Assembly: GCF_030273315.1 (NCBI RefSeq)
Contig: NZ_CP127174.1
Span: 1,302,001 to 1,366,000, forward strand
From: Natrialbaceae archaeon AArc-T1-2
GTDB lineage: Archaea > Halobacteriota > Halobacteria > Halobacteriales > Natrialbaceae
DNA: 64,000 bases
Reading direction: 5' to 3'
Shown: one piece after another, positions 34,820-49,588 of the stretch
Layout: every line of letters begins with the position of its first letter
Numbering within the stretch: the stretch's first letter is position 1
Position numbers and translations under genes: made by a program
Notes under the pieces: generated by a model
Seen by the model: only the letters and a program-made list of their open reading frames with translations
Databases searched by the model: none
Told to the model about the DNA's origin: nothing

Positions 34820-37800
34820 TCAGGTCGTCCGCAGCGTATCCGTGCTCGGCTCGTACACCTCGCCTTTCTGTTTGAGCTTCTCGATCTCGTGTTCGGCTTT
34901 CGAGCGGTCCAGACCGACCTCGTCGGCTCGCTCGAGCACCACGTCGGTCGGCGCGCCGTCGTCGTACTCCTCCTCGACGTCGCTGATGAGCTGTTTGAGG
35001 TTCTTGATCCGATCGCGCTGGGATTTGGAGGTCCCGGCCTCGACGATGTCGGCGTCGAACTCGCCCGTCTCGGGGTCGACGCCGATGTCCTGGAGACACG
35101 ACCGGACGATCTCGATCACTCGTTCGGCGTCGGCTTGCTCGACCGTATCCGACAGCCGCACCCGGGCGCTGGCCTCGGAGAGCCGAACCAGCGCCTCGAG
35201 TTTCCGGGCCGTGACCGGCACCGGCGCGTCCTCGTCGGTGCCTTTCGCACGCAGGTCGACGTAGAAGTCCCGGATCGCCTCCCGGGCCTCCTCGGTCATC
35301 CGCGGGTGACAGTTCTGTTTCGCGTAGGCGACGTACTTGCGCAACAGTTCGGCGTCGATCACCGGATCGACCTGGTCGGTCATCTCCTCGATCTCCTCGG
35401 CGGAGACCTCGAGCGAGGGCATCTCCTCGCGCTGGGTCGTCAACTCGCCCGCGTAGTTCGTCGTCAGAATGTGCTCTGCGAGGTCGCGATCTTTCTCCTC
35501 GTCGGGCTGGTCGGTGACCGTAAAGATCAGGTCGAACCGCGAGATCAACGCCGGCTCGAGGTCGATCTGCTCGCCGATGGGCTCGTACTGGTCGAACCGG
35601 CCGTACTTGGGGTTTGCCGCGCCCAGCAGCGAACAGCGCGACTGCAGCGTCGCGTTGATGCCAGCTTTCGAGACCGAAATCTTCTGTTGCTCGAGCGCTT
35701 CGTGCATGGCACTGCGGTCCTCGGAGTTGTGGACGACCATCCCGTTCGCGACGAAGTTGTGCGTGCCCTCGACAGTGAGGTCGTAGACGAACTCGAACGT
35801 GTCGCCGTCGATCCGGCGAACGTCGGTGATCTCTCGCGGTTCGACGTCACGAAGACCCGAGTCCGCGGACGATTCGACGAGTACGGCACCACCATCGGTC
35901 ACAACGGTGGACTGGTTGCAGGGCGCGAGCGTCTCGTCTCCTGGCTCGAGGTCCGCCGCGGCCCGCTCGGTGACGTCCCCGTTCTCGTGAACGAAAAACG
36001 GATGATCGGGTGTCGACCGAACCCAGTTCCCGTCTTCCGTGACGACCTCGACCAGTTCCGACGGCGCGTCGTACTGGTGGATGGCGGTCACCGGGCGTTC
36101 GACGATCGTTCCGTCGTCAGCCATCGTGCGAACGGAGCGGTCCACGTCGCGAATTGTTCGCCCGTTCTCGAGCTCTTCAACGGTTCCCTCGGCTATCGCG
36201 TCGTGGGCCAGTTCGCGGATTTCCACCTCTCCACCGGATGTCGAGACGGTCGAATCGCCGGTGACACACCGCATCTTATCGAGCTCGTCGACTGCGGCGA
36301 TCCCCTGGTCGGCGAGCACCAGCGCGCCGGCCTCTAAGGTCCACTGCTGGCCGTCGCCGAAGTCGTCGCGAACGGCCGCGGCCGTGTTGTGCGTGACGAC
36401 CCCGTTCGCGAGGAAGTTGTGCGTCTCCGGAACGGTGAGGTCGAACACCTCTTTCTCACCGGTATCGACCGCCGCGACGACCTCGTCCCAGCGGAGGTCG
36501 GCCTCGACCGCTTCCTCGACGATCGACTCGGCGTCGCCAAGGTCCCGATCCTCGAGCATTCGGCGGGCTCGCTCCCGACCGGGGTTGTCACCCCGATTGA
36601 AGTTCATGTAGTATTCGCCTCCCGCAGCGTCGACGGCGGTCAGAACGCTCCCGACCGGAATCGTCTCGCCGCGCCGCTTTGCGTCGCCGACGACGCGCTC
36701 GAGCGCGGCCTGCTTCGTCGGACAGCCGAACCCGATCGCGTCCGCGAACCGATCGATGTCCGTCCCGTAGCATTCGAGGTGGTACTGGACGTGGTTCGAC
36801 TCGATCTCGTACCCGTTCTCGAGGACGGAGACGCCACGCCGGTCGCGTTCGCGGACGCGAGCGCGGACGCCGTAGGTCTCGAGCATGAGCTGTACCTGCC
36901 GGGCGAACGTCTCGCTGATCGTCGAGAGGTGGATGCTCGAGCCGCCGTTCGTCCGTGCCGAGACGGAGCCGTCGGCATCCATCAGGCCACGAAGGAACGC
37001 GTCGGCGTGTTCCGCGGTCGCCAGTGCCGGATCGAGTTCGAGGTGGGCTTTCGGCGTCTCCATCCCGACGTTGGAGACGAACCTGGCGATCGTGGCGCTG
37101 TGGACCCGGATACACGGGACCCTGTCGTCCTGGTACTCGATCACGGGGCGCTTGTCGAACGTCTCGTCGAAAATGTCGACGGCGCGCTCCAGGATCGCCT
37201 CGTCGCCGTTCGAGATCCGGACGTGACCGCGATTCTCCCCGCGCCGGGAAAGCATAATATCGCCGTCACCGAAGACGAGTCCGAGCAGGTAACACAGGTC
37301 CTCATCGAACTCGTCAGGGATGCGAACGCTGTCGCCGTGTCGGAGCATCGCCCGGTCGATCGACAGCTCCTCGAGGTCGACGTCGATCGCCTCGAGTATT
37401 CGTCCGAGTCGATCCAGCGGGACGTGCCGGTTCGGAACCGTGTCATAGAGGAAATCCTCGGTGAGATCGAGTGCGGCCGCCGCGTCCCGGAGCGTCCCGA
37501 ACTCCTCGCACAACCGCCGGCGAATCAGGGCGACCGACTCGTCGTCGAGTTTCAGCTTCTCGTTCGTGAACTCGAAGTAGTCCTCGATCGGAGGCGTCGA
37601 TCGGTCGACCCCGTCGTATCTGGGGGCTGCGACGTACTCGCCGGCCTCGACGTCAGCGATCGGTTTCCACTCGAGGCCGTCGTTGCCACATGTCAGGACC
37701 GGCGTGTTTCGCGAGGCCTCGAGTTCCTTGCCGCGTGCCGTCTCGATACGGCGACACTGCTTCGGCGGCATTCGCCAGACGTGTGACGTCGATGCGGTCT

Positions 37801-39034
37801 CGAGCGTTCCGCCGTCGCGATCGAACGTGTAGAGTTCGATCTCGTCCTCGACGGCGGTTTCGGCGTCGACCGGTTCCGGGAGCCGTCGTTCGACGACGTT
37901 CCGGATCTCCGCGAACCCGTTCTCCGTGTGGACCAGGGTGTCACCCGTGACACAGAGACCGGCCGAGGACGAGCCCTTCCCAGAGGTGTAGACGGACCTG
38001 GGCGCGATGTTCTGGATGTAGCCCAGCATCTGCGACTTGCCCGTACCCGGATCCCCGATCAGCAGCATGTGCAGGTCCCCGCGAATCCGCGAGCCGTCGG
38101 GTAACTGCTTCGTCACACCCGAGAACAGCTGCAGGATCATCGCGAGCTTCTCCTGGTCGTAGCCGTAGATCGAGGGCGCGACGGAGCCGATCATCTGCTC
38201 GTAGATGTCCGACGACTCCGAGAGGCGGACGATCTCCGCTTTGTCCTCGTCGGTGATGTCCATGTCCTCGAACTGCTCTTCTTCGATCTCGACCGCGACC
38301 CCCTCCATGTAGAAATCGAAGATGGGCGACTTCTCGCCCTGGTTGGTCTGTTGCTCGAGTCGCAAGACGCCGGTCGCGGAGACGTGGTCGCCAGGGGTGA
38401 CCTCCCCGGTGATATCGTCTTCGACGTGGACGTCGATCGACTGGGGGGTCTCCCCGCCTCTAAGCCCTTCGGGACTTTCTTGGATGCGAAGCTTCTGGGC
38501 GTCGACGAACTCGGACTGGTCGAAGTTGACCTGGAATGGTCCCTGGCGTTCACAGCCCTGGCACTCGTGAGGCTCCTGGAAGTCACCGGTCGACTGGGGA
38601 ACACGGTTCAGGGTGCCACAGAGCTGGCATTCGAAGGCTGCTTCCTCGATTTTTGGGCGGACGTCGGTGGCCTTGCGGACGATCCCCCGGACCTCGACGA
38701 GCTGGTTCATGTGGCGCGCGCGGATGTCCCGAATCTCGGGCGACTCCGTCTCGGGGAGGTTCCGCACGCGGACGTGTGCCTGACCGAGGCTCACGTCGAT
38801 CGGTAAGTCGTACAGCCGGAGCGCTTCCTCGGCGTAGCGCTGGAGCTGCTCGGGTTTGTTGAGATAGTCGTCGGCGAGGTCGGGATCGTACCGATAGAGG
38901 TCCTGCCAGTCGACGTACAGCGAGCGCTGTTCGGTCGGATATCGCTGCGCAAGCTGCTTGATCCCGTTGTCGTAGTAACTCCGGAAGAACTGCTCGAACG
39001 CATCGACGAGCTCGGAGGTTCCCGCTTGCGCCAT
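34820..39034 (-). CDS. mcm: replicative helicase MCM with two inteins
   Basis: A 1404-residue precursor; removing two inteins (523 and 181 residues) leaves a mature MCM of 700 residues, the usual haloarchaeal length. MCM unwinds DNA at the replication fork as a hexamer. N-terminal domain 1-255 with a zinc set at C136/C139 and C158/C161; Walker A GDPGTGKS near 327-334; Walker B DELDKM near 916-921 between the inteins; arginine finger region LISRFDLIF after intein 2; C-terminal winged helix (last 70 residues). A TATA-like ttttatgg lies about 27 bases before ATG at 39034. Confidence 0.95.
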   Translation of the reverse strand: MAQAGTSELVDAFEQFFRSYYDNGIKQLAQRYPTEQRSLYVDWQDLYRYDPDLADDYLNKPEQLQRYAEEALRLYDLPIDVSLGQAHVRVRNLPETESPEIRDIRARHMNQLVEVRGIVRKATDVRPKIEEAAFECQLCGTLNRVPQSTGDFQEPHECQGCERQGPFQVNFDQSEFVDAQKLRIQESPEGLRGGETPQSIDVHVEDDITGEVTPGDHVSATGVLRLEQQTNQGEKSPIFDFYMEGVAVEIEEEQFEDMDITDEDKAEIVRLSESSDIYEQMIGSVAPSIYGYDQEKLAMILQLFSGVTKQLPDGSRIRGDLHMLLIGDPGTGKSQMLGYIQNIAPRSVYTSGKGSSSAGLCVTGDTLVHTENGFAEIRNVVERRLPEPVDAETAVEDEIELYTFDRDGGTLETASTSHVWRMPPKQCRRIETARGKELEASRNTPVLTCGNDGLEWKPIADVEAGEYVAAPRYDGVDRSTPPIEDYFEFTNEKLKLDDESVALIRRRLCEEFGTLRDAAAALDLTEDFLYDTVPNRHVPLDRLGRILEAIDVDLEELSIDRAMLRHGDSVRIPDEFDEDLCYLLGLVFGDGDIMLSRRGENRGHVRISNGDEAILERAVDIFDETFDKRPVIEYQDDRVPCIRVHSATIARFVSNVGMETPKAHLELDPALATAEHADAFLRGLMDADGSVSARTNGGSSIHLSTISETFARQVQLMLETYGVRARVRERDRRGVSVLENGYEIESNHVQYHLECYGTDIDRFADAIGFGCPTKQAALERVVGDAKRRGETIPVGSVLTAVDAAGGEYYMNFNRGDNPGRERARRMLEDRDLGDAESIVEEAVEADLRWDEVVAAVDTGEKEVFDLTVPETHNFLANGVVTHNTAAAVRDDFGDGQQWTLEAGALVLADQGIAAVDELDKMRCVTGDSTVSTSGGEVEIRELAHDAIAEGTVEELENGRTIRDVDRSVRTMADDGTIVERPVTAIHQYDAPSELVEVVTEDGNWVRSTPDHPFFVHENGDVTERAAADLEPGDETLAPCNQSTVVTDGGAVLVESSADSGLRDVEPREITDVRRIDGDTFEFVYDLTVEGTHNFVANGMVVHNSEDRSAMHEALEQQKISVSKAGINATLQSRCSLLGAANPKYGRFDQYEPIGEQIDLEPALISRFDLIFTVTDQPDEEKDRDLAEHILTTNYAGELTTQREEMPSLEVSAEEIEEMTDQVDPVIDAELLRKYVAYAKQNCHPRMTEEAREAIRDFYVDLRAKGTDEDAPVPVTARKLEALVRLSEASARVRLSDTVEQADAERVIEIVRSCLQDIGVDPETGEFDADIVEAGTSKSQRDRIKNLKQLISDVEEEYDDGAPTDVVLERADEVGLDRSKAEHEIEKLKQKGEVYEPSTDTLRTT
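35726..36268 (-). other. intein 2 in MCM, mini-intein without endonuclease
   Basis: Precursor residues 923-1103 (181 residues), inserted directly after the Walker B segment DELDKMR and before SEDRSAMHEA. It starts CVTGDSTVST, has TPDHPFFV as block B and ends VEGTHNFVANGMVVHN, with a Ser at +1. No LAGLIDADG motif is present, so it depends on splicing only. Just 39 extein residues separate it from intein 1. Confidence 0.92.
36386..37954 (-). other. intein 1 in MCM with LAGLIDADG homing endonuclease
   Basis: Precursor residues 361-883 (523 residues), between extein ends SSSAGL and TAAAVRD. Splicing motifs: Cys1 in CVTGDTLV, block B-like TPVL, block F/G FDLTVPETHNFLANGVVTHN ending His-Asn, and +1 Thr. 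Two endonuclease dodecapeptides are present: LCYLLGLVFGDGD (about intein residue 220) and LRGLMDADG (about 321). It can therefore both splice and possibly spread by homing. It lies about 25 residues after Walker A. Confidence 0.92.
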
Positions 39035-39282
39035 TGCACTGGGTTAGGTGCGCCATCGGCCATAAAAGGTCGTATACCGCGCCGAAAGTGATCGTGGGAT
39101 CGCTCGGGTTGTGAACCACGGGCGGAGCACTCCTCCCTGGTTCAAATCCGTGTTCTTTCCAGCCTCGCTGCTCACGGGGTTGTTCGCAGCGAGAATGGGA
39201 CCGCGCGGTCTAGATCCGTTTCCTCTGGCGTTTTCTTGACTTGCTATTCTACTCGATCGGGACTTGTGATTCGGTGACATCG

Positions 39283-40305
39283 TTACTCGAAGGTCAGTTT
39301 CTGCAGGTGTGGTCGTCGGCACTGTTCCATCCGGTCGCGCTTGCTCGCCTTGTCGTAGTACTTCTCAATCACGTCCTGACTGGCGTCGACCCGCTCACGG
39401 ACGACTTCACGAGGAACGCCACAGTCTCGGTGCCAAGTGATTGAGCCGGTTCGAACGTGGTGGGGTGCTCGCGACGACGGGCACTGGCTCGAACTGCTGT
39501 GGTTGGTGAAGTCGCACGTCGGCCGGGAGTGGCCGTGCGGGCACGCCTGTCGGACACACGGGAACGTCGCCCGGTACATCCAACTCCGGAGGGTGTTGGT
39601 CGTCGGTCGTCCCTGAAGCGACGAGAAAAGGGGCTGGCGGCCGTACTCGTCGTGTCTGTCGGCTCGATTCGTTCGAATGTACGCCGATACCGACTTGGCG
39701 ACCGGTTCATCAATTCCGACGATTCGCTCGCCGTTGAGCTTGTTCTTGAGCGGGGTATCCGTTTCCGGACGGTGCGCGAATTCGATCGACTGCTCGCCGG
39801 CGTCGAAATCCCGGAGATCGAGCGCACGAATCCCACCGAGTCTGGCACCGGTGTTCCAGGCGACTTCCAGCAGCGCGTGATACTTCGAGCCGTATCGATC
39901 ACTGCTCCGGTAGTGCTGGAGCAGCTGGATTGCTCGCTCGGCGTCGAGTTTCGTCTCGCGGGATTGCTCGTCTTCGGGAACGTCGGGGACGTGGACCTTT
40001 TCGGCCAGCCCACCGCCCACCGCTTCAATCCGTTCGAGGTACGCGATGAATGCCTGCAGCGTATCCATCTCGTTGTGAAGAGTGTACGAAGCCACGTTCT
40101 GACCCGATCGGACGGACTCGAACTGATCGAGAATCCAGCCGTCGAGTTCGTCGACAGTCTCGATCTCCTGGCGTTCACACCACTCCACGAACAACTTCAG
40201 CCGATACCGGTACGTGACGAGCGTTTCGTCCGTCAGTTCGGTCTTGCGAGCGTTTAGATACCGCTCGAATCCCTCGCGGGGTGAAAGGTCGGTCGGCCGC
40301 TTCAT
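39283..40305 (-). CDS. tyrosine integrase/recombinase
   Basis: A 340-residue site-specific recombinase. The N-terminal core-binding (SAM-like) domain spans about 10-95; the catalytic domain has R155 in ARLGG, the H-x-x-R box at 282-285 (HHVR) and the nucleophile Tyr at 316 or 317 in EKYYDKAS. The Cys/His-containing loop CPHGHSRPTC before the HxxR box resembles integrases of haloviruses and plasmids. Its ATG overlaps the stop of a small upstream gene (atga), so they are co-transcribed. It likely moved the element now ending at tRNA-Pro. Confidence 0.85.
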   Translation of the reverse strand: MKRPTDLSPREGFERYLNARKTELTDETLVTYRYRLKLFVEWCERQEIETVDELDGWILDQFESVRSGQNVASYTLHNEMDTLQAFIAYLERIEAVGGGLAEKVHVPDVPEDEQSRETKLDAERAIQLLQHYRSSDRYGSKYHALLEVAWNTGARLGGIRALDLRDFDAGEQSIEFAHRPETDTPLKNKLNGERIVGIDEPVAKSVSAYIRTNRADRHDEYGRQPLFSSLQGRPTTNTLRSWMYRATFPCVRQACPHGHSRPTCDFTNHSSSSQCPSSRAPHHVRTGSITWHRDCGVPREVVRERVDASQDVIEKYYDKASKRDRMEQCRRPHLQKLTFE

Positions 40306-40508
40306 TGCCCACCCTGGCTGACTGGGGAGCGATTCGCCGTCGGTTCGGCCGTCAGTGCGGGACGTTCAAGGCCCCGCCGGTGGTTCTCCAACATGGCTTC
40401 GGTAGCTTGGTTACCGGAGCCGCCGCGGATCCAGTGCCCTAACACTGGTCCGCATTTTACTGCCGGACCCGACGGACAGTCAGATCCGCGTGAGTCTCCG
40501 GTTAGCAA
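40302..40508 (-). CDS. small protein upstream of integrase, start uncertain
   Basis: A frame of 68 codons from TTG at 40508, ending on the TGA that overlaps the integrase ATG. The core, CGPVLGHWIRGGSGNQATEAMLENHRRG, looks conserved rather than random, and a TATA-like tttata (minus strand, plus coordinates 40529-40534) sits 21-26 bases before the TTG. GTG or ATG codons inside the frame would give shorter products. A role with the integrase (excision factor?) is only suggested by position. The open frame extends upstream antisense to the repressor, but that part is not believed. Confidence 0.5.
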   Translation of the reverse strand: MLTGDSRGSDCPSGPAVKCGPVLGHWIRGGSGNQATEAMLENHRRGLERPALTAEPTANRSPVSQGGQ

Positions 40509-40541
40509 ACCAGTCTCTACCGAGAGAGTATAAATGTTCAC

Positions 40542-40573
40542 ATGGATTCGTGTGCTTGACCACACGTATCCAT
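40542..40573. promoter_or_regulatory. 32-base near-perfect palindrome between repressor and integrase operons
   Basis: Left arm atggattcgtgtg and right arm cacacgtatccat pair at 12 of 13 positions around the six-base centre cttgac. It sits upstream of the integrase-side TATA box and about 56 bases before the repressor gene, where an operator for the wHTH repressor would be expected. Confidence 0.6.
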
Positions 40574-40589
40574 TATCCAAATGTGATAT

Positions 40590-40607
40590 GTTCGTCGCGT
40601 AACGAAC
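40590..40607. promoter_or_regulatory. second palindrome, 6-6-6 layout
   Basis: gttcgt and acgaac flank a six-base centre cgcgta, the same arm-spacer-arm layout as the inner part of the 40542-40573 palindrome. It lies 22 bases before the repressor start and could be an autoregulatory operator. Confidence 0.4.
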
Positions 40608-40628
40608 GAGTTGTAGGTGTGACTGAGA

Positions 40629-40892
40629 GTGCGAAAAAGCGCTGACTGGATGCAACTCCCGATTGATGAGAGAATTCTTGAAGCCTTCTCTACCTCCGGT
40701 ATGATCCTGTCTCCGGCAGTTATCGCGAAGAACATCGACAAGAGTCGAGACGAAGTAAACCGTCGCCTTTCGGTCCTTGTCGAGTACGGTGTTGTCACGC
40801 GCGTCGAGCGTGGGTACTACGAGATCACCGAGCTCGGCGAGCAGTACCTCGCTGGCGAGATTGACGCCAACAGTATCGAACCGGACAGCTAA
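40629..40892 (+). CDS. PhiH1-type winged-helix repressor
   Basis: An 87-residue DNA-binding protein made of one winged helix: RKSADWMQLPIDERILEAFSTSG, recognition region AKNIDKSRDEVNRRLSVLVEYGVV and wing RVERGYYEITELGEQYL. This pattern is that of the repressor of halophage PhiH1 and relatives, which hold proviruses silent. GTG at 40629 gives the family start MRKSADWM. The gene is divergent from the integrase unit and faces two palindromes, its likely operators. Confidence 0.8.
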   Translation: MRKSADWMQLPIDERILEAFSTSGMILSPAVIAKNIDKSRDEVNRRLSVLVEYGVVTRVERGYYEITELGEQYLAGEIDANSIEPDS

Positions 40893-40894
40893 CC

Positions 40895-41125
40895 TCACGC
40901 CTCACCTCCCCGGAGCGTGAGCGCAAGCCGATCGCGTGGGATCAGCGCCCCAGTCTTCCGGTCACGCAGTTCGTCGAACTCCGGTTCAGCGTTTGCGTAT
41001 CCAGTCGCACATTGCTGACACCAGAAGTGGTTATTCGTTACTTCCCAGGACCGATGCCCCTTCGGGCAGGTGTATCGCCACCTGTCGGCGGGCGAACGCA
41101 GCCGTATCAACTGTTTTGAAGACAT
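40895..41125 (-). CDS. small zinc-ribbon-like protein
   Basis: A 76-residue protein. CPKGH (about 20-24) and CQQC (about 36-39) would bind one zinc, within SPADRWRYTCPKGHRSWEVTN. Similar single-zinc proteins accompany PhiH1-type repressors in haloarchaeal proviruses. It converges with the repressor (2-base gap). A TATA-like cttttacac (plus coordinates about 41148-41156) precedes the ATG at 41125 by about 25 bases. Function unknown. Confidence 0.65.
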   Translation of the reverse strand: MSSKQLIRLRSPADRWRYTCPKGHRSWEVTNNHFWCQQCATGYANAEPEFDELRDRKTGALIPRDRLALTLRGGEA

Positions 41126-41248
41126 TCAGGCAAACCGACAGTCGAGAGTGTAAAAGTGAATGCCCTAAGCCGGTTAGTGAAAGTGAAAGTGATTTACCGA
41201 AATTTCCGATTATCAAGACTGATACCTACGCCAAGGATGAAATATATT

Positions 41249-42690
41249 GGTCGTGTCCCAAACTCGTCTAGAGTCGTAACTGACTCCTGTGGAAACAGGG
41301 TCACCTCTGGTACCTACCCCGAAGTGACCCATGCACGCCACAATCGACGCGCAAGTCACGGTTAGCATCGACTTAGACAAAACGCTACCGCTTGCCACTC
41401 TCGCTGAATCTCTCACAGAGCTTCACCTCGAGGCGACGATCCTCGAGGAGCTTGTCAAAAGCCTCGACGAGCGCCTCGTCGAGGCGTACTGTGGGGAGAA
41501 ACACGCGCGCGGAAACGGCGATCGCCGTTTCCAGCGCGCCGGAACCACAACACGAACAGCTGTGACAACCGCAGGAGAGCACGAATTTTCCCTTCATCAC
41601 GTCAAAGACACCGCTGCCACCGGTGACGATCCTACCTACTTCCGCCCTCTCGAAGATCTCATCAAATTCGACGGGCAGCGCATCTATCAAGAGGATATTT
41701 CGCTCCAGAGTACCGAACTCGCTACGTCGCTCAGCTTTCGTGATGCCGTTGCCCACGGCGACGGCTTCACTCCGATGCCTTCGAGAACCACGATCAACCG
41801 CCGAGTCCGTGAGTACGGCAGCAAACTCGGTGACTTCGTTCGTGATCGGCTTCCTGGGACGAATGCAGACACTGTCGTTCCTGACGGAACGAAGTGTCAT
41901 AGCCAGGACGATCACTGCACGTACCACGACGTCAACGTCACTCTCGGACAGATCACCGAAGACAACGCGGAAACCACGCTCTTAGACGTCAATGTCAACG
42001 AACCGTGGGACGATACAGCAGAAGATCTCGAAGAGAACGAGGCGATCACTGACGACGCGACGGTCGTCAGTGACGCCGAGGAATCCCTCGTCGACGCCTT
42101 CGAGACCAGCTATCGATCTCATCAGCTCGATCTCGTTCATGTCGGTCGAACGCTTGGATACAAGCTGTGGAAGGACGGTACCTTTTCGCTCAAAACGCGG
42201 AAAGCGATCGCCTCAGACGTCACAAACGACTTGTTCCATCTGAAAAACTCGGTTGCGCTCCATGCACCGAGGAATGAGCGTTTGGCGATCCGCGAGCGGA
42301 TCGACCAAACGCTCGAGAACCTCACGAAGGAGGCGTGGCGCTTAGAGCAACAGGACTCTCCAAAAGCAGCGGCGTACCTCCGAAAATGGGCACAAGCAAC
42401 CGTCACATTCGCCGAACTCGCACTCGAGGGACAAGAGGTTCTGTGGACATCGAACGTGGTTGAACGAGCCATGGGCGAAATCTCGAAGCGGTGTAAAAAC
42501 CAGTGGATGAGATGGACAGAGTCCGGCTTAGAATCGCTCCTCTGGCTCAATCTCGTGAGATATGCCGATTCCGAGCAGTTCGCGGCGTTCGCCGACGAAC
42601 TGCTCGAGCGTTCAGCCAAAACAGCCATGACATTGGAGGTGTCAGTTGACGCTACCAGAGGCGAACTCTAGACGAGTTTGTGACGGGACC
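41249..42690 (+). mobile_element. ISH6-family insertion sequence
   Basis: A 1442-base element. The terminal inverted repeats are 26 bases and agree at 23 positions (left starts ggtcgtgtcccaaactcgtc at 41249; right complement starts ggtcccgtcacaaactcgtc at 42690). It encodes one transposase. The 8-base duplication expected for ISH6 is absent: left flank aatatatt, right flank agaaaatg. The missing duplication suggests recombination or deletion after insertion, consistent with the truncated gene on its right. Confidence 0.85.
41331..42671 (+). CDS. ISH6-family transposase
   Basis: A 446-residue DDE-type transposase that fills the IS from just inside the left repeat to the right repeat; its stop lies within the right inverted repeat. 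Length and sequence (RGNGDRRFQRAGTTTRTAVTT near the N-terminus, VVPDGTKCHSQDDH in the catalytic region, WTSNVVERAMGEISKRCKNQWM near the C-terminus with the catalytic-type Glu) fit the ISH6 family. The frame is intact, so the element could be active. Codon use is less GC-biased than in the core genes. Confidence 0.88.
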   Translation: MHATIDAQVTVSIDLDKTLPLATLAESLTELHLEATILEELVKSLDERLVEAYCGEKHARGNGDRRFQRAGTTTRTAVTTAGEHEFSLHHVKDTAATGDDPTYFRPLEDLIKFDGQRIYQEDISLQSTELATSLSFRDAVAHGDGFTPMPSRTTINRRVREYGSKLGDFVRDRLPGTNADTVVPDGTKCHSQDDHCTYHDVNVTLGQITEDNAETTLLDVNVNEPWDDTAEDLEENEAITDDATVVSDAEESLVDAFETSYRSHQLDLVHVGRTLGYKLWKDGTFSLKTRKAIASDVTNDLFHLKNSVALHAPRNERLAIRERIDQTLENLTKEAWRLEQQDSPKAAAYLRKWAQATVTFAELALEGQEVLWTSNVVERAMGEISKRCKNQWMRWTESGLESLLWLNLVRYADSEQFAAFADELLERSAKTAMTLEVSVDATRGEL

Positions 42691-43169
42691 AGAAAATGGG
42701 ACCACTCGTCTACAAAATCCGGAAGTACGGCGGATCGCTCATCATCATCGGACACGATGGCGGGGACGTTCACCCGATGGTTCGCGAGCAGTCGAAAGTA
42801 GTCAAGAAAGACACCAAGAAAGAGGCGACAATCTACGACTCTATCCGGAATCGCAAGCCCCAGGGCCAGATTGCACGCATCAGCGGAATTCCACCGACTG
42901 ACTGGCGATTCGACACGCACGAAGCGACGGCGTGGAGTTGGCAGGATCTCCGGACCACCGACGAGGACGACGGACTAAGCGAGTCCGAAGCGGTCGAACA
43001 GGCGGCGATCTACACCGTTATCCGGGCGAAACAACAGGGTTTGAGCAATCGACAAGTGGCGAATTTCGTCCCCTGGAGTCACGAGACCGTGCGCAAGCGA
43101 TGGAACGAATTCGAGAACGACGGACTGCACACCGACACGGTTGCCAACGTCGAGGGCGTGATCGCATGA
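42691..43169 (+). pseudogene. 5'-truncated gene resembling a viral/plasmid packaging ATPase
   Basis: The frame starts one base after the ISH6 right end (first ATG 42696) and gives 157 residues. PLVYKIRKYGGSLIIIGHDGGDVHPMVRE resembles the last part of the P-loop core of FtsK/HerA-like ATPases of haloviruses; no Walker A is present because the 5' part is gone. The remaining tail has a helix-turn-helix-like stretch (LSNRQVANFVPWSHETVRKRWNE). ISH6 insertion followed by deletion most likely removed the start; the left flank of the IS carries no matching fragment. Confidence 0.6.
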
Positions 43170-43324
43170 CCGCACGACGGTGGCAGGGTGTCAACGTCAA
43201 CCGACACCCTGCATATAGGGCCGCGGTCCTCCCCAAACGGATCGACCATTGCGGCCCACGGCCAGCAACCAGACCGGCGGAGGAGTCGATATATAAAACG
43301 CGTGACGTGCGTGATGCGGTGTGA
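43166..43324 (+). CDS. 52-residue basic protein in provirus operon
   Basis: ATG at 43166 overlaps the previous stop (atga), and its stop overlaps the following GTG (gtga). The product is basic (MTARRWQGVNVNRHPAYRAA...), with no recognised domain. Tight overlaps at both ends support translation, although codon use is poor and chance cannot be excluded. Confidence 0.45.
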   Translation: MTARRWQGVNVNRHPAYRAAVLPKRIDHCGPRPATRPAEESIYKTRDVRDAV

Positions 43325-43704
43325 ATCGCTCGAAGCGAGCGAATCACTTCGGCACGATCTGCGAGAAGCGGATGGCAGCCAAACGACGGTTCGACCTGGA
43401 ACGATCGAGCTGGCACGACGCAACGTTCCAAAACGGCACACCGGTCGAGATCAAGTCGACGATGCTCGAACACGCGGACGGCCAACCAGGAACGTTCAAA
43501 ATCTATCGTCGGTATCACGAGAAGCTTCGTCGGGTGGACGGCTGGTACTGTTTCGTCGTCTATCGGCCACACGGATGCTCAGGCCTGACGATCATCAAAG
43601 ATCGAATGATGAAATCAGCGAACTTGCCACTACTCCGATGGCACGGTGGTGGCGATCACAGGGACACACAACAAGCGAAACTGGCGATCAGTGAGGTTTT
43701 CTAA
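43321..43704 (+). CDS. possible PD-(D/E)XK nuclease-like protein
   Basis: A 127-residue protein from GTG at 43321. The segment RSSWHDATFQNGTPVEIKSTM has an Asp followed, about ten residues later, by Glu-Ile-Lys, the D-(n)-E-x-K layout of PD-(D/E)XK nucleases and Holliday-junction resolvases. The following strands (FKIYRRYHEKLRR, WYCFVVYRPHG) fit such a fold. It ends the small provirus operon. Nuclease activity is a guess from the motif. Confidence 0.5.
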   Translation: MNRSKRANHFGTICEKRMAAKRRFDLERSSWHDATFQNGTPVEIKSTMLEHADGQPGTFKIYRRYHEKLRRVDGWYCFVVYRPHGCSGLTIIKDRMMKSANLPLLRWHGGGDHRDTQQAKLAISEVF

Positions 43705-44119
43705 TGGCCCCAGTGGAACTCATTTTGAGAGATATGTTTCAGCGATTGTGATGGATACAGGGCGCGTATCTTGGACAAGGGATGTACAGATATCAGCTAT
43801 TGAATCAATCAGTCCAAGTGAAAAACGTAACGTACCGTTCTCGGTCTGAAAGATCGGCAATATTCTATAACTACAATTATAATTCCACCATCACTACAGC
43901 ACCATCCGCAACTACGCTTTCGCTTAACGATGTGTTTGCGGTATTGGGAGCGAAACATTCACCTGAATCTGCACCATCACCTCCTACCCGCTTAATCGAT
44001 TGTGAAGTCTGTCGGAATGATCCTGTTAATCGATGGAAGATAGTACCAAACAGAAGCGTAGTCTTTCCACATAGAAGTAACTCTTCATAAACAATAACAC
44101 CCACCAATGTTTTTCAGAT
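43705..44119. other. 415-base AT-rich gap with no convincing gene
   Basis: The stretch is markedly lower in GC than the rest of the window. Short open frames on both strands have no recognisable product or codon bias. The last 35 bases (cataaacaataac at about 44087) supply a plausible TATA box for the lipoprotein gene at 44120. It probably represents degraded element DNA. Confidence 0.5.
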
Positions 44120-46867
44120 ATGGTTTACAGACCTTCCAGAAGGGCAGTCATCACATCGAGTGGGTTACTCGCCACTGGCCTCGCCGGCTGTCTGGGCACC
44201 GCCCAGGAAGAAGACGATTCGCCTTCAAACCCGAACCAACTCCAACAAAACCAACTCCAACAAGCCGACGGCCCAGCACCGGTCGATCTTGGGACTGCCT
44301 GTGACTTTTCGATCCTAGCAAAATCCGGGATTTCGAGCGTCCCCAATTCCGACGTGGCGGGGGACATTGGCGTGAGTCCGATTGCGGCAACCGCCATAAC
44401 CGGGTTCGATTTGACCCTGGATGCAACCGGCGTCTATTCGACATCGACTCAGGTGGGCGGACGGGTGTACGCGGCCGATTATTCGGATCCGACCCCGTCC
44501 AGATTGACCACGGCCGTGAGCGATATGGAATCCGCGTTCACCGACGCTATGGGTCGCGTTCCGCCAGACGATACGGAAATAGGTGCCGGAAATATCGGCG
44601 GCGAGACATTCACTCCAGGGATCTACAACTGGAGTTCGGACGTGTTAATCGACGGCGATATCACCCTCGAAGGTGGGCCAGACGACACGTGGATCTTCCA
44701 GATCGCGGGGGATCTCACCGCGGCTAGCGGGACCACTGTCAATCTAGAAGGTGGCGCGCAGGTCGAAAACATAGTCTGGGTGGTCGCCGGCGGTGCCGGT
44801 GTCGAGATTGGGACGGACGCGAACTTCGCAGGAATTGTGCTGGCCCAGACGGGAATTAACGTGCTCACCAATGCAACGGTGGACGGCTGTTTGTATGCCC
44901 AAACCGACGTCAATCTGCAGATGGCGACGGTTACTGGATGTGACTGTGATCTTGTAGACCTGAAAGTGGACTCGGACTGTGTTGATGAGCAAGGGCAAAT
45001 CACGGTAACGAACCCTAACGACGTCTCGGTGATGGTGACCGTCACCGGTCCCGACGGGTACGAGGAGACGATGGAGGTTCCCGCAGGCGGTTCGACAGTG
45101 TGGGGGACTCTCGCAGATGGAACGTATTCACTCGAAACCGACCATATCGTAATCGGTCTCGATATCACGACGCTCGACATTGTTTGCGATACTTCCGTGC
45201 CTACCGTCGTCACGACCCCGGCGACGGACGTCAACGAGTCGACGGCGACGCTCAACGGCGAACTAACGGACCTTGGTGACTTTGACGCCGTTGACGTCTT
45301 CTTCGAGTGGCGCGTCCTCGGCGAGGACGACTGGATCACCACCGAGTCTCAGACGCTCGTGGACCCTGGCGTCTTCAGCGCTGAGATCGAGGATCTCGAG
45401 CCCGGCACCACCTACGAATTTCGGGCGGTCGCTGTCGCCAATGATACCCGGGTGGAAGGCACCACGCTTCGAATCATCAAACCGGTTCCAGGTACACCGG
45501 ACGTGATTACCTCGCCGGCTACGGACGTCAACGAGTCGACGGCGACACTCAACGGCGAATTGACCGATCTCGGAGATTTCGATGACGTCGACGTCTTCTT
45601 CGAATGGCGTGAAGTCGGTGCGGAAGACTGGATCGCCACTGGATCCCAAACACTCGAAGAAACCGGCACCTTCAGCGCCGAAATCGAGGGGCTCGAGCCC
45701 GGCACCAGTTACGAGTTCCGGGCAGTCGCCGTCGCCAATGACACCCGGGTGGAAGGGGCGATTCTTTCGTTCACCAAAGCCGAACCCGGCGCTCCCATCG
45801 TCGAAACACAGTCAGCGACGGAAATCAACGGATCGACGGCGACGCTCAACGGTGAAGTGATCGACCTCGGTGACTTCGACACCGCCGACGTCTTCTTCGA
45901 GTGGCGCGTCCTCGGCGAGGACGACTGGAATACCACCGAGTCTCAGACGCTCGAAGAACCGGGTTCCTTCAACGCCGAAATTGAGGGCCTCGAGCCCGAG
46001 GTCACCTACGAGTTTCGGGCAATCGTGGTCGCTAATGACGATCGTCACGAAGGAACCATCGTCTCGTTCACCAAAGCCGAGCCCGGCGTCCCCAGCGTCG
46101 AGACACAGCCAGCGACGGATATCAACGGATCGACGGCGACGCTCAACGGTGAAGTGATCGACCTCGGTGACTTCGACACCGCCGACGTCTTCTTCGAGTG
46201 GCGTGTCCTTGGCGAGGAAGACTGGATTGCTACCGAGTCCCAGACACTCGAAGAAGCCGGCACCTTCAACGCCGAGATCGCTGGCCTAGAGCCCGGTACC
46301 ACCTACGAGTTCCGGGCTGTCATGGGGGCGAATGACGAACGGTTCGAAGGCGCCACACTATCGTTCACCAAAGCGGTCCCAGCTGCGTTGGAAGTCGAGA
46401 CAGGGCCAGCGACGGATATCAACGAATCGACAGCGACGCTCAACGGCGAACTACTTTCCCTCGGTAGTGCAGAAGAAGTTACCGTCTACTTCCTGTACCG
46501 CGTCAAGGGGACGGCAGTGTGGATGTTTACCGACGAAGAGATCCTCACCGAACCCGGCCCATTCAGCGGAACGGCGACGAACCTCGAGACTGGCACAGTC
46601 TACGAGTTCAAGGCTGTCGCCCAGGTGGGCAGTGCGGTGGTATACGGTGAGACTCTGAAGTTCACGAAGGAAGCCGTTGACGAGAAGGAAAAGAAGGCCA
46701 AGAAAAAGCGCAAATACGAACGCGCAAAGCGCGAGTATGAGAAGTACAAGAAGAAATACGAGAAAGAGCGGGTGACGAAAAAGCAACTGAGAAAGAAGAG
46801 ACGCGCCTACGAGCGCGCAAAGCGCGAGTACCAAAAGTATACAACGCATTGTAATAACAGCACCTGA
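44120..46867 (+). CDS. Tat lipoprotein: DUF3494 ice-binding-like domain, five FN3-like repeats, basic tail
   Basis: A 915-residue surface protein. Twin Arg (RR at 7-8) and lipobox LAGC with Cys 24 mark Tat export and lipid anchoring. A Gln-rich linker precedes a DUF3494 domain (about 56-275: DFSILAKSGISS..., VAGDIGVSP, TFTPGIYNWSSDV, IFQIAGDLTAASG, GIVLAQTGINV), the beta-solenoid of ice-binding proteins. A Cys-containing beta domain (276-359) and five FN3-like repeats of 98-99 residues (360-853) follow. The last 62 residues are extremely Lys/Arg-rich. DUF3494 proteins bind ice in polar microbes, but many relatives look like adhesins; an attachment role is my inference. Confidence 0.85.
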   Translation: MVYRPSRRAVITSSGLLATGLAGCLGTAQEEDDSPSNPNQLQQNQLQQADGPAPVDLGTACDFSILAKSGISSVPNSDVAGDIGVSPIAATAITGFDLTLDATGVYSTSTQVGGRVYAADYSDPTPSRLTTAVSDMESAFTDAMGRVPPDDTEIGAGNIGGETFTPGIYNWSSDVLIDGDITLEGGPDDTWIFQIAGDLTAASGTTVNLEGGAQVENIVWVVAGGAGVEIGTDANFAGIVLAQTGINVLTNATVDGCLYAQTDVNLQMATVTGCDCDLVDLKVDSDCVDEQGQITVTNPNDVSVMVTVTGPDGYEETMEVPAGGSTVWGTLADGTYSLETDHIVIGLDITTLDIVCDTSVPTVVTTPATDVNESTATLNGELTDLGDFDAVDVFFEWRVLGEDDWITTESQTLVDPGVFSAEIEDLEPGTTYEFRAVAVANDTRVEGTTLRIIKPVPGTPDVITSPATDVNESTATLNGELTDLGDFDDVDVFFEWREVGAEDWIATGSQTLEETGTFSAEIEGLEPGTSYEFRAVAVANDTRVEGAILSFTKAEPGAPIVETQSATEINGSTATLNGEVIDLGDFDTADVFFEWRVLGEDDWNTTESQTLEEPGSFNAEIEGLEPEVTYEFRAIVVANDDRHEGTIVSFTKAEPGVPSVETQPATDINGSTATLNGEVIDLGDFDTADVFFEWRVLGEEDWIATESQTLEEAGTFNAEIAGLEPGTTYEFRAVMGANDERFEGATLSFTKAVPAALEVETGPATDINESTATLNGELLSLGSAEEVTVYFLYRVKGTAVWMFTDEEILTEPGPFSGTATNLETGTVYEFKAVAQVGSAVVYGETLKFTKEAVDEKEKKAKKKRKYERAKREYEKYKKKYEKERVTKKQLRKKRRAYERAKREYQKYTTHCNNST
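45197..46678 (+). repeat. five tandem about 297-base repeats encoding FN3-like domains
   Basis: Unit boundaries are near 45197, 45494, 45791, 46088 and 46385. Each starts around PATDVNESTATLNGEL and ends at FTKAEPG. Units 3 and 4 share long identical stretches (for example gtgatcgacctcggtgactt), while unit 5 is most divergent. The nucleotide identity implies recent duplication or conversion. Confidence 0.85.
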
Positions 46868-47034
46868 TCCGGTCGGACGACCGGTTCCAGGCCGCATTTG
46901 GTCGCGGTGGTCGTGGCGCTTATATACCGAATGATCGGGGCTACGGAGAGAAATGAACCGAGCTGTTGTGCTGCATCCATCCTCTGTATTCAGCACTGAG
47001 TTGTTGTCTGATCATATGTAATACTATAAAAATT

Positions 47035-47960
47035 GCTTTGTTGAATAGCTGCTGAACGATGGTTAGAGTGGCTCACAGAGCTTTTCTATGTTGATGATGG
47101 CGAACATGAGGACAATTTCACGGAACTGTCGATACCAGCCCAGCGCTCGCACGGCATCGCCGAGCGAGCGCTTCGTTGTCGAGTACGACGTTTCGGCCAT
47201 CCAGCGCTGAGCGTAGCCTTTTGTCCGGATAAGCGTGTTGTTCCCTGTCGTGAGTGGTTTCGATCCACGCTGTAAGATCAGTGGTTCGACACCGAGGGCG
47301 TAGAACTCGTATTTGGTGTGCCAGTTGTGGAAGGCTTTGTCAGCAGCGACGGAAAGCAGGTCGTCCGCGTTCCGGCGGACGACCTGCGGCCCTGTCTTCG
47401 TATCGTGTTTCCACCGGGCTGAGATATGAACGTCAAGAACTGCAAGAGACTCTACATCGGTTAATGTGGTCACTTTCAGCGTCTGCACGCTATTCCCGGA
47501 TCGCTGACGGTAATACGATGATGCAGCGTGTCGGTCGAAGAACGTACTGTCGAGAGCGACGTGTCCAGACTGCGGGTGTTGCTGCGCTGAAACGCGCAGC
47601 AACGCCCGCCACACCCACATTTTCAGCCGATCGAACGACTTGTAGATCGTGCTGTAATCCGGCAACTCGTCCTGATCGAGGCCAAGTACGTCACGAACCT
47701 CAGACATGTACTTCAGCCGGTTCGGCGTTTCACGGTAGCTATGGCCCTCTTCGAGCCGAAAACAGTGCAAAACGACATGTACCCAGCGGGCGAACCCGCC
47801 GCTGGCGGGCTCGCCCGCGTGCTTCCCCAACGCTTGTTTGGCTAGGTCTCGACACTGCTCAACGAAGTCGAGGATATCGATTTCCATACCAACCTCGATT
47901 TCCTCGACTTCATCCTTCTAACCCGTGATATCAGCTGATTAGATCGCTCTTCAACAGAGC
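47035..47960 (-). mobile_element. IS5-family insertion sequence
   Basis: About 926 bases. The ends are gctttgttgaatagc (47035) and, complemented from 47960, gctctgttgaagagc, matching at 13 of 15 positions; the right end is itself almost palindromic. One transposase lies between. The stop codon of the neighbouring truncated gene falls inside the right end, which shows that insertion broke that gene. Confidence 0.75.
47063..47887 (-). CDS. IS5-family transposase
   Basis: A 274-residue DDE transposase. The three catalytic regions are ALDSTFFDRH (first Asp near 113), SVAADKAFHNWH (second Asp near 188) and RWMAETSYSTTKRSLGD (Glu near 236, with the family Y/S-x-x-K spacing). N-terminal SYRETPNRLKYMSEVR matches the usual DNA-binding region. 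The frame is intact. Sequence resembles haloarchaeal IS5-group elements; the exact IS name was not determined. Confidence 0.85.
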   Translation of the reverse strand: MEIDILDFVEQCRDLAKQALGKHAGEPASGGFARWVHVVLHCFRLEEGHSYRETPNRLKYMSEVRDVLGLDQDELPDYSTIYKSFDRLKMWVWRALLRVSAQQHPQSGHVALDSTFFDRHAASSYYRQRSGNSVQTLKVTTLTDVESLAVLDVHISARWKHDTKTGPQVVRRNADDLLSVAADKAFHNWHTKYEFYALGVEPLILQRGSKPLTTGNNTLIRTKGYAQRWMAETSYSTTKRSLGDAVRALGWYRQFREIVLMFAIINIEKLCEPL

Positions 47961-48382
47961 AGAATACGGCAGTTGATACCCTCCTGAAGCGTCGGCGGGA
48001 TCGAAATCTTCGTCTCCTCGCCGTCGCCCGTTTCACCCCGAAGCCCTTGCCACCTGGGAGCCATGTGAACGGAAAAGTCCTGTTCACCGGTCGGGTCCTC
48101 GTCGGGGTGTCGCTCGATCGTAAGGCGTGGCTCGCGGATCGTCTCGAACGCGATCGGCGTATCGCCGGGCGTCTCACCGCCGTCTGGAGGTAACAGATTC
48201 CCGTCGGTGTACCAGAGTGTCACCTCCCACCGCTCACCACGGCGTTGGAACTCACCGGCCTTGCTCCCACCAGCCTGGTCGATGAGCTTGTTTGCGGCGA
48301 TCCACGGCCCGAGCGTCGGAAAGATAGCGTTCCCATCGAACTCGTGCGGGGCGGGCTCGACGGCGCGAATCGGGCCCGTCAC
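47951..48382 (-). pseudogene. C-terminally truncated provirus protein (DUF7845-like)
   Basis: 143 residues from GTG at 48382. The N-terminal EPAPHEFDGNAIFPTLGPWIAANKLID, central GERWEVTLWYTDGNLLPPD and APRWQGLRGETGDGEE recall a haloarchaeal virus/plasmid family (DUF7845 in my recollection). The last residues, INCRILLC and the stop, come from the IS5 end, so the true C-terminus is lost. Its GTG overlaps the stop of the small zinc-finger gene before it. Confidence 0.6.
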
Positions 48383-48573
48383 ACCAACCCCTCACGATCG
48401 ACGAAACACGCCGTGCACAACTCGACGGACTGACCGAGTCGTGCCGACACCTCCGGCCCACGATACTCGCAGTCGGCACACGCCGGCCAGAGTGGTTCGT
48501 CTGTTTCGTCGTCTGTCTCGTCTGGCTCTGACGGGTCCTGTGGCTCGACACCGAAGGCGGACAAGTCCGTCAT
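48379..48573 (-). CDS. 64-residue zinc-ribbon protein
   Basis: Cys pairs CADC (32-35 region) and CTAC (53-56 region) in PACADCEYRGPEVSARLGQSVELCTACFVD form one zinc ribbon after an acidic, disordered N-terminus. ATG at 48573 follows the preceding stop by three bases; the TGA overlaps the next GTG (gtga). Part of a seven-gene chain of very small Cys-rich proteins. Function unknown; DNA binding is possible. Confidence 0.65.
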   Translation of the reverse strand: MTDLSAFGVEPQDPSEPDETDDETDEPLWPACADCEYRGPEVSARLGQSVELCTACFVDREGLV

Positions 48574-48576
48574 CGG

Positions 48577-48690
48577 CTACTCCCTCCCTCCGAGATCGGC
48601 GTCGCAGTACGGACAACGCGCCCGTCTTGACGGGTTGAACTTCGCGAGCGTGGCCGACACTGTGGCCCCGCAGGTGCACCGGTAGGTCAC
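48577..48690 (-). CDS. 37-residue zinc-ribbon protein
   Basis: GTG at 48690 overlaps the stop of the preceding gene (gtga). Product VTYRCTCGATVSATLAKF...RARCPYCDADLGGRE has a C-x-C and a C-x2-C pair, enough for one zinc knuckle. Ends tag at 48577-48579, three bases before the next ATG. Too short for most gene finders, but the overlap pattern and the Cys pattern support it. Confidence 0.6.
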   Translation of the reverse strand: MTYRCTCGATVSATLAKFNPSRRARCPYCDADLGGRE

Positions 48691-48905
48691 CCTGACTCAC
48701 CCCCGTGATCGACGAGCGTGGTCTGGTCGTCCCCGAAGGGTGCGAACAGCGTCGGCTGACTCCGGAACAGGTCAACCACTTCGTCGTAGTCGTCGGGCTC
48801 GCGGCCGGTGAGTGACCGAAACCGGTTCTTGTGCTTGTTCGCGTGGGCGACGATCCCATTCGGAGACTCCGATTCGAAGCCACAGACGCGACAGGTGAAC
48901 GTCAC
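48687..48905 (-). CDS. 72-residue C2H2 zinc-finger protein
   Basis: TCRVCGFESESPNGIVAHANKHKNRF gives a C-x2-C-(12)-H-x3-H finger (residues about 5-24) followed by a helical tail (DDYDEVVDLFRSQPTLFAPFG). GTG at 48905 overlaps the previous stop; TGA overlaps the next GTG. Single C2H2 fingers of this kind occur in haloviruses, where they may bind DNA or recruit other proteins. Confidence 0.7.
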   Translation of the reverse strand: MTFTCRVCGFESESPNGIVAHANKHKNRFRSLTGREPDDYDEVVDLFRSQPTLFAPFGDDQTTLVDHGGESG

Positions 48906-49021
48906 AGCACATCACCTCGGACTCGGCGGATTTCGCGAGCACACTCCGGGCACAGTCGTCGAGTAGCGGCGACGGTAGTCTCGCACTGCTCGCACTCGCC
49001 GGAGTCGACGATCCGGCTCAC
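48902..49021 (-). CDS. 39-residue zinc-ribbon protein
   Basis: GTG at 49021 overlaps the previous stop. The product MSRIVDSGECEQCETTVAATRRLCPECAREIRRV... has CEQC and CPEC pairs, spaced as in rubredoxin-like knuckles, and a basic tail. Its TGA (48902-48904) overlaps the next GTG. Supported by the regular overlaps and the paired Cys rather than by homology. Confidence 0.6.
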   Translation of the reverse strand: MSRIVDSGECEQCETTVAATRRLCPECAREIRRVRGDVL

Positions 49022-49146
49022 GCCGACTCACCTCGCGTATCGCTATGGGTGTGGGCCAGCCCGCGCATCACCGCCACTCGGTAGGTGGTCCGGTGACCGC
49101 TCGAAACGTCGTACAGGTCCGACGCCGGAACGAACTCGGCGGTCAT
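49018..49146 (-). CDS. 42-residue protein in zinc-finger operon
   Basis: ATG at 49146 overlaps the previous stop (atga), and its TGA overlaps the next GTG (gtga). Sequence MTAEFVPASDLYDVSSGHRTTYRVAVMRGLAHTHSD; no Cys pairs, four His or so. No recognised domain. Its existence rests on the perfectly nested overlaps. Confidence 0.5.
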   Translation of the reverse strand: MTAEFVPASDLYDVSSGHRTTYRVAVMRGLAHTHSDTRGESA

Positions 49147-49433
49147 CGTTCCACCCCTCCGCCGTCAGTCGCGACGGTCTGACAGAGTGACCGAACGGCC
49201 GGATTCAGCTCGTCGAACGGCACACCGAACCGATCAGGACTGTCGAGCGGGTCGACGCTTCCAACGTCGAGACCGGCGGCGCTCCCGTTGGCGAGTCGAC
49301 CGTAGTTATCGCACTCGGTGCAGCGTTGGGCGCGGTCATCGGCGTCACCAAAGCCTCGTCGGAACTCGGGGGTGACGTGTGAGCCACAGGTTAGGCAACG
49401 ATTCGCCCGACTGGTGGGCTGCCATCGCTGCAT
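49143..49433 (-). CDS. 96-residue zinc-finger protein, first gene of the micro-operon
   Basis: CLTC (13-16) and CTEC (38-41) enclose SHVTPEFRRGFGDADDRAQR, the layout of a haloarchaeal single zinc-ribbon family (DUF7563-like from memory). The C-terminal half is less conserved. ATG at 49433 is preceded by the inverted repeat cagcgatc/gatcgctg (49434-49464) and a TATA-like ttttaacc (plus coordinates about 49475-49482), which could place a regulated promoter here. The gene starts 83 bases from tRNA-Pro, read in the same direction. Confidence 0.65.
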   Translation of the reverse strand: MQRWQPTSRANRCLTCGSHVTPEFRRGFGDADDRAQRCTECDNYGRLANGSAAGLDVGSVDPLDSPDRFGVPFDELNPAVRSLCQTVATDGGGVER

Positions 49434-49515
49434 CAGCGATCGCCTCCGAGAAAGCGGATCGCTGTTCTCAGGTGGTTAAAACCGGCAAAAACGCCCGGTT
49501 TGTTTTTATACGCAG

Positions 49516-49588
49516 TGGGACCGCCCGGATTTGAACCGGGGTCACGGGCACCCAAGGCCCGAAGTATACCAGGCTAACCCACGGTCCC
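49516..49588 (-). tRNA. tRNA-Pro (anticodon TGG)
   Basis: On the minus strand the acceptor strands gggaccg and cggtccc pair, the anticodon stem cgggc/gcccg closes the loop cttgggt with anticodon TGG, and the T arm is cccgg-ttcaaat-ccggg. Discriminator is A; CCA is not encoded. A hairpin with a T run (gtttttgcc) lies about 30 bases downstream. The 3' end faces the integrated element, as at a tRNA attachment site. Confidence 0.95.

Follow-up and report, generated by a model that had tools for sequence, protein, structure and literature searches.

A predicted DUF3494 lipoprotein with an FN3 stalk and a basic tail in a tRNA-Pro element of a haloarchaeon

The window analyzed here is the whole 64,000-nucleotide (nt) stretch of DNA from Natrialbaceae archaeon AArc-T1-2. 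The gene under study occupies positions 44120–46867 of its plus strand and, by ORF call and Pfam matches, codes for a 915–amino acid (aa) putative surface protein of the DUF3494-FN3 type. The gene is preceded by an IS element with 27–base pair (bp) terminal inverted repeats (41248–42691, plus strand; transposase, 41331–42671), of which the genome holds at least eight full copies. A second IS (~47034–47961, minus strand), present in six full copies and coding for a DDE transposase (47063–47887), starts ~167 bp after the gene. At its edge lies a truncated DUF7845 gene (47951–48382, minus strand) that covers profile positions 2 to 125 of 315. Farther out, a tyrosine-recombinase–like integrase gene (39283–40305, minus strand; Phage_int_SAM_1 over its cutoff, Phage_integrase under it) is found beside a degenerate copy of the tRNA-Pro 3′ end (39196–39218, minus strand), a putative att remnant. 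The integration target, tRNA-Pro(TGG), lies at 49515–49588 on the minus strand. In two relatives (loci L105 and L112), tRNA-Pro(TGG) lies immediately upstream of mcm, whereas in the window ~10 kb of additional DNA separates the two. The att copy matches at 18 of 23 bases, which is weak by itself; the element, spanning ~10.3 kb (~39196–49515), was called because of the position of this copy next to the integrase and the uninterrupted sites in relatives. The first-pass annotation had placed the gene between two IS elements near a tRNA, and the gene does lie in a tRNA-Pro element that has acquired IS copies.

Two successive degenerate copies of the tRNA-Pro 3′ end are apparently present between mcm and the integrase (39090–39218), the second of which, nearer to mcm, is only probable; they suggest that more than one integration event may have taken place at tRNA-Pro. 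The mcm replicative helicase gene itself (34820–39034, minus strand, 1404 aa) is interrupted by an intein with a LAGLIDADG endonuclease domain. At the locus of one homolog (L037, 10925–12373, minus strand), a longer DUF7845 copy adjoins the DUF3494 gene and a tRNA-Arg, but on the gene’s other side. A viral or phage origin was rejected for the collections searched: no relative appeared among viral contigs, nor in phages by tblastn.

The protein starts with a Tat signal peptide ending in a lipobox (residues 1 to 24; 44120–44191). Its N terminus reads SRRAVI...LAGC24, the lipobox (...SRRAVITSSGLLATGLAGC) ending at C24, the predicted site of lipid modification. The twin arginines, R7 and R8, are invariant in 17 of 17 sequences aligned at M1, and the lipobox cysteine is present in 14; these motifs predict a Tat-exported lipoprotein. 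In the other three (L031, L042, and L037), the cysteine is replaced by serine (two copies, one of them in Halovivax asiaticus) or deleted, while the remaining protein, tail included, is conserved. The signal peptide is followed by the DUF3494 head (residues 50 to 274; 44267–44941), a cysteine-containing β-sandwich domain seen in the model (residues 275 to 357, with C276, C287, and C356; 44942–45190), and a stalk of five FN3 repeats (residues 358 to 850; 45191–46669). The repeats were recognized by Pfam (PF00041, 62.5 bits against a cutoff of 25) and by their period of 99 aa, or 297 nt. The protein ends in a basic Tyr/Lys/Arg tail (residues 851 to 915; 46670–46864). All these features lie on the plus strand, and the chain of lipobox, DUF3494, cysteine-bearing domain, five FN3 repeats, and Lys/Arg-rich tail proposed at first pass is thus present in full. 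No Pfam family matched the cysteine-containing domain, and its best structural Z score, 8.8, is one that common Ig-like arrangements also reach, so assignment to a known family was rejected. C257 and C274 are found in nearly all haloarchaeal domains compared, while C61 and C276 are both present in all FN3-type and Halohasta-type proteins and both missing in the homologs at L029 and L045. This co-occurrence suggests disulfides C257-C274 and C61-C276, to which C287-C356 may be added in the next domain.

The Pfam Ice_binding profile (PF11999) matched residues 65 to 272 end to end (positions 1 to 208 of 208) with an E value of 1.5 × 10^−68 and 231 bits, compared to a gathering threshold of 28.7. 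A phmmer search of the PDB matched 25 DUF3494 chains, the best being 4nu3 (7.5 × 10^−67). The full-length AF2 model gave the tail as a helical hairpin but modeled the head poorly, with low confidence, because the alignment was shallow; it was replaced by a model of residues 50 to 357 built on a wider alignment (pLDDT of 86.9). The head of this model superimposes on 4nu3 with a Z score of 37.8 and a root mean square deviation of 1.2 Å over 223 residues (53% identity, TM score of 0.96). The structure 4nu3 is that of a head-swapped mutant of FfIBP; the wild-type protein (4nu2) superimposes with a Z score of 36.5, and other DUF3494 structures give 30 to 38. Prediction and homology thus agree that the head has the DUF3494 fold, a discontinuous β-solenoid with a long α helix alongside. 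Family and fold had both been claimed at first pass, to be given up should no DUF3494 match or another fold appear; the results fall on the other side by a wide margin. With NCBIfam, the IBP_CFB equivalog (NF045625) scored 224 bits, under its curated cutoff of 400; by this score, the head belongs to the same superfamily but not to that equivalog.

Rows of the b-face, which corresponds to the ice-binding face, were mapped by the inward residues that define the ice-binding rows of TisAFP7 (PMC7966756). The outward neighbors of these residues in the window protein are G70/S72, D174/L176, D198/T200, G225/E229, G245/N247, and D263/N265, compared to G/T, T/N, N/N, A/T, G/N, and A/T at the same aligned places of 4nu3 (FfIBP type). 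The first-pass annotation had proposed looking for a flat ice face. All rows are recognizable, but D174, D198, E229, and D263 occupy outward positions that usually bear no charge. E229 is present in 21 of 21 haloarchaeal domains and in none of the other sequences compared; 2 inserted residues precede its row, which makes its exact position alignment-dependent. Over the 12 outward positions, the mean acidic fraction is 0.25 in the 21 haloarchaeal domains and 0.33 in the window type, compared to 0.06 in methanogens, 0 in actinobacteria, and 0.06 in four solved ice-binding proteins (IBPs). When all IBS positions of TisAFP7 are considered, the acidic fraction is 0.09 for the face and 0.14 for the rest of the domain. 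Two haloarchaeal face types can be discerned, the window type (D174, D198, E229, and D263) and the L030 type (E229 only), with a few mixed cases; the L030-type subclade retains T-A-X-N rows that resemble the motif of FfIBP. Overall, acidic residues are more frequent in these rows than in the ice binders used for comparison. The carboxylates may reflect either general halophilic acidification or a new ligand, which sequence alone does not separate.

Full-length PF11999 genes were found in 19 of 391 sampled haloarchaeal genomes; the source genome has only one DUF3494 gene. Within Natrialbaceae, 17 of 125 genomes have a homolog, 16 of the 125 (~13%) with the FN3-type architecture, and a few more homologs occur in other haloarchaeal families. 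The architecture, tail included, which was called unusual at first pass, is thus recurrent rather than a one-off. Carriers include Natrinema zhouii, N. mahii, Halovivax asiaticus, Natronobiforma cellulositropha, Natrarchaeobius strain AArcht7, Natribaculum breve (on a plasmid), and Natronoglomus mannanivorans, all Natrialbaceae, as well as Halomicrococcus gelatinilyticus (on a plasmid, Haladaptataceae) and Halohasta litorea. Fourteen Natrialbaceae homologs align over nearly the whole window protein at 72 to 81% identity. Two of these (L032 and L034) reach ~1205 aa, being ~290 aa longer due to extra FN3 repeats, and the Halohasta-type proteins have one FN3 followed by an acidic linker. Other stalks were also seen: the head is carried on a low-complexity acidic stalk of TDTE repeats at L029 (3215–4816, minus strand) and on DPDDP repeats followed by PEEKEKKEKKSDEDC repeats at L045 (1423–3303, minus strand). 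A non-haloarchaeal genome of the same phylum (G444; loci L118 and L128) has seven DUF3494 matches and a gene with five tandem DUF3494 domains. One haloarchaeal homolog is already annotated by NCBI as “ice-binding family protein”; beyond this automatic naming, the collection of papers searched yielded none on DUF3494 in haloarchaea and no earlier description of the family.

In the domain tree, all 21 haloarchaeal domains group into a single clade (100/100) next to FfIBP, LeIBP, and TisAFP, of flavobacterial and fungal origin, while methanogen and actinobacterial DUF3494 domains are placed elsewhere; bacterial sampling is thin, so the tree does not fix the donor of the haloarchaeal clade. The synonymous distance of the head to the homolog in genome G046 is 0.44, while an mcm segment from these two genomes gives 0.77; the distance to the Haladaptataceae plasmid homolog is 0.59. 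These values make lateral movement of the gene likely. No neighbor gene was widely shared among 21 loci compared, where the flanking genes are unrelated (transposases, integrase, purK, uvrA, cobA, and others) and envelope genes show no consistent linkage. The only widely recurring frames are antisense or shifted versions of the gene itself, and a conserved operon partner was therefore rejected.

The IS flanks, the degenerate att, and the truncated DUF7845 gene could indicate a nonfunctional hitchhiker of a decaying mobile element, as could the homologous ORF in Natribaculum (L035), which ends before the tail. Yet the dN/dS ratio is low in every domain (0.05 to 0.14 in the head, 0.07 to 0.28 in the cysteine domain, 0.20 to 0.41 in FN3, and 0.06 to 0.34 in the tail), which points to purifying selection with the head most constrained, and the reading frame is intact across many genera, making a loss of function extremely unlikely. 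The gene family is real and well conserved, patchy and solitary in distribution.

The closest relatives of the haloarchaeal domains in the sampled tree, FfIBP, LeIBP, and TisAFP, are proven ice binders. Together with the 53% identity to 4nu3, this raises the alternative that the head binds ice, hydrohalite, mirabilite, or natron in winter-freezing continental salt lakes, protecting or anchoring the cell. Rows KSGIS and QTGIN, joined in one subclade by QTAVN, keep the T/S-A/G-X-T/S/N pattern, and the origin of some carriers is Xinjiang or the Kulunda steppe, where winters are cold (PMC12343721); both the tree position and these origins count against the non-ice reading favored below. However, the face carries carboxylates with E229 fixed, carriers with published data grow at 37° to 45°C, and the distribution tracks Natrialbaceae rather than cold habitats, as far as names show. 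Moreover, brine saturated with NaCl stays liquid down to about −21°C. We consider ice or hydrate binding of this kind quite unlikely. An antifreeze role appears improbable because of the four b-face carboxylates of this copy, the fixed E229 in the haloarchaeal clade, and the life of carriers with published data in warm, very salty brine; the protein is probably not an antifreeze.

The tail is the part that seems to be new here. With 28 Lys/Arg against 11 Asp/Glu and 7 Tyr, it differs from residues 27 to 850, which have 27 Lys/Arg against 150 Asp/Glu, and it is predicted to form a Tyr/Lys helical hairpin (helices 855 to 881 and 887 to 913). Proteins of halophiles are acidic and avoid lysine-rich sequences. 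A lysine-rich tail that is conserved on at least four exported architectures in one family of halophiles is thus a puzzle. A tail profile matched 20 of 391 haloarchaeal genomes, all Natrialbaceae, and 27 genomes in the set of 125 Natrialbaceae. To the first-pass question of whether relatives share the tail, the answer is yes for 15 of 16 FN3-type Natrialbaceae genes, the window included, and no for the Haladaptataceae and Halohasta-type homologs; in Natribaculum (L035), the tail is found in a separate frame after the ORF. Besides the DUF3494 type, the tail ends proteins with another β head (IQWGGQGSENATQ...), three FN3 repeats, and a longer tail (L158, L165, and L163; a lipobox is present in some); Cys-rich Tat-signal proteins with an FCGTF.PGPQ head and two Ig-like domains (L157, L160, L161, and L167); and a PQQ-propeller–like protein with DUF7282 domains (L159), architectures unrelated to one another. 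Searches of the tail alone against Pfam and of its profile against the PDB (E value of 0.001) gave no match, and a known identity was rejected. The nearby IS was also rejected as its source, since the IS begins ~167 bp past the gene and relatives conserve the tail. Retention at the cell surface would be the simplest function common to all these proteins.

Two potential binding ends, a tail common to other exported proteins, and a variable number of stalk repeats, typical of surface linkers, would also suit a structural protein of the envelope whose head and tail bind neighboring cells, the S-layer, or the matrix as a biofilm linker. But generic linking needs no conserved flat-solenoid head, and the 21 loci lack a consistently linked envelope gene; we regard this role as unlikely.

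The reading we favor, with a probability of roughly 60%, is that the protein is a Tat-exported adhesin, lipid-anchored and raised on an FN3 stalk, that binds a regular surface other than ice. A surface adhesin for something other than ice had been suggested at first pass, and this appears to be the best-supported function by sequence and model, with a mineral, a hydrate, and a polysaccharide as candidate ligands. The non-ice surface is favored because of warm-brine habitats and a family-level proposal of mineral-like substrates. AArcht7 was obtained from a trona crystallizer pond and has its maximum growth at 45°C (PMC12343721), and the carrier AArc-m2/3/4 grows at 37°C in 3.5 to 4 M sodium, forming aggregates with solid mannan (PMC10963439). 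DUF3494 outside polar settings, which had seemed surprising at first pass, is documented: the proteins occur in the tropics and in hot springs, and repeating substrates such as minerals have been proposed for them (PMC7783341), while a survey of 50,669 DUF3494 proteins draws on several environments, rock among them, and regards the family as binding ice and substrates (PMC12337378).

In such an adhesin, lipidation of C24 would tether the N terminus to the membrane, and the FN3 array would act as a spacer of evolvable length, with five repeats here and more in some homologs. The positively charged hairpin would probably dock the other end to a polyanionic component of the envelope or matrix and so aid retention, with the caveat that simple electrostatics is screened at 4 M salt. 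The gene would spread as single-gene cargo.

A narrower form of the favored reading is an adhesin for insoluble polysaccharide (cellulose, chitin, or mannan) that keeps degraders on their substrate. Three named carriers (Natronobiforma cellulositropha, Natrarchaeobius, and Natronoglomus mannanivorans) degrade insoluble polysaccharides, and the last grows in aggregates with solid mannan (PMC10963439). Natrialbaceae are, however, generally rich in degraders, no carbohydrate-active gene is found among the classified flanking genes, and the face positions have no row of exposed aromatic residues. Moreover, such degradation is, to our knowledge, not known for Halovivax, Natrinema, Halomicrococcus, or Halohasta. 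This narrower form is doubtful.

Most interesting in this family are the modified face, found in hosts from warm brine, and the basic tail common to several architectures. DUF3494 has so far been studied mostly as an antifreeze fold, and the haloarchaeal branch, monophyletic, laterally moving, with an altered face and hosts growing at 37° to 45°C, offers a clean natural experiment on whether the fold binds regular surfaces in general, ice binding being one specialization. A bolder proposal, to which we would give only a slim chance, is that the 62-residue hairpin tail is an unrecognized Natrialbaceae surface-retention module that keeps several unrelated exported proteins on a polyanionic envelope in saturated salt and that the DUF3494 face, now carboxylate-lined, has trona, gypsum, halite, or another salt-lake mineral as its ligand.

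Among named systems, the giant ice adhesin MpIBP of Marinomonas primoryensis (PMC5014055) is a functional analog, since it also holds an ice-binding domain off the cell by a very long multiregion protein; that domain is unrelated and the protein far larger (1.5 MDa). DUF3494 proteins of Actinomycetota are likewise probably surface-anchored, plasmid-borne, and in some cases from nonpolar sources, but identity is ~35%, they form a separate clade, and, in place of a lipobox, some have a class F sortase gene alongside. Closer in layout is SfIBP_1 of Shewanella frigidimarina, a proposed ice adhesin with tandem β-sandwich domains according to the account of Vance 2018 in PMC7783341. Both proteins join DUF3494 to a tandem Ig-like array, and the SfIBP_1 domain (6bg8) aligns with a Z score of 32, but its DUF3494 identity is only 32%, and the window protein has instead an FN3 array, a Tat lipobox anchor, and a basic tail. 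With type 1 IBPs (FfIBP, LeIBP, TisAFP, and Cryosericum IBP), the haloarchaeal protein shares the discontinuous β-solenoid plus helix, at 46 to 54% identity and Z scores of 36 to 38 to 4nu3, 5b5h, 9li0, and 3uyu. It differs from them in its acidic b-face with the invariant E229 and the 2-residue insertion before the E229 row, in conserved cysteines (257 with 274 and 61 with 276), and in being a predicted multidomain lipoprotein of warm-brine hosts.
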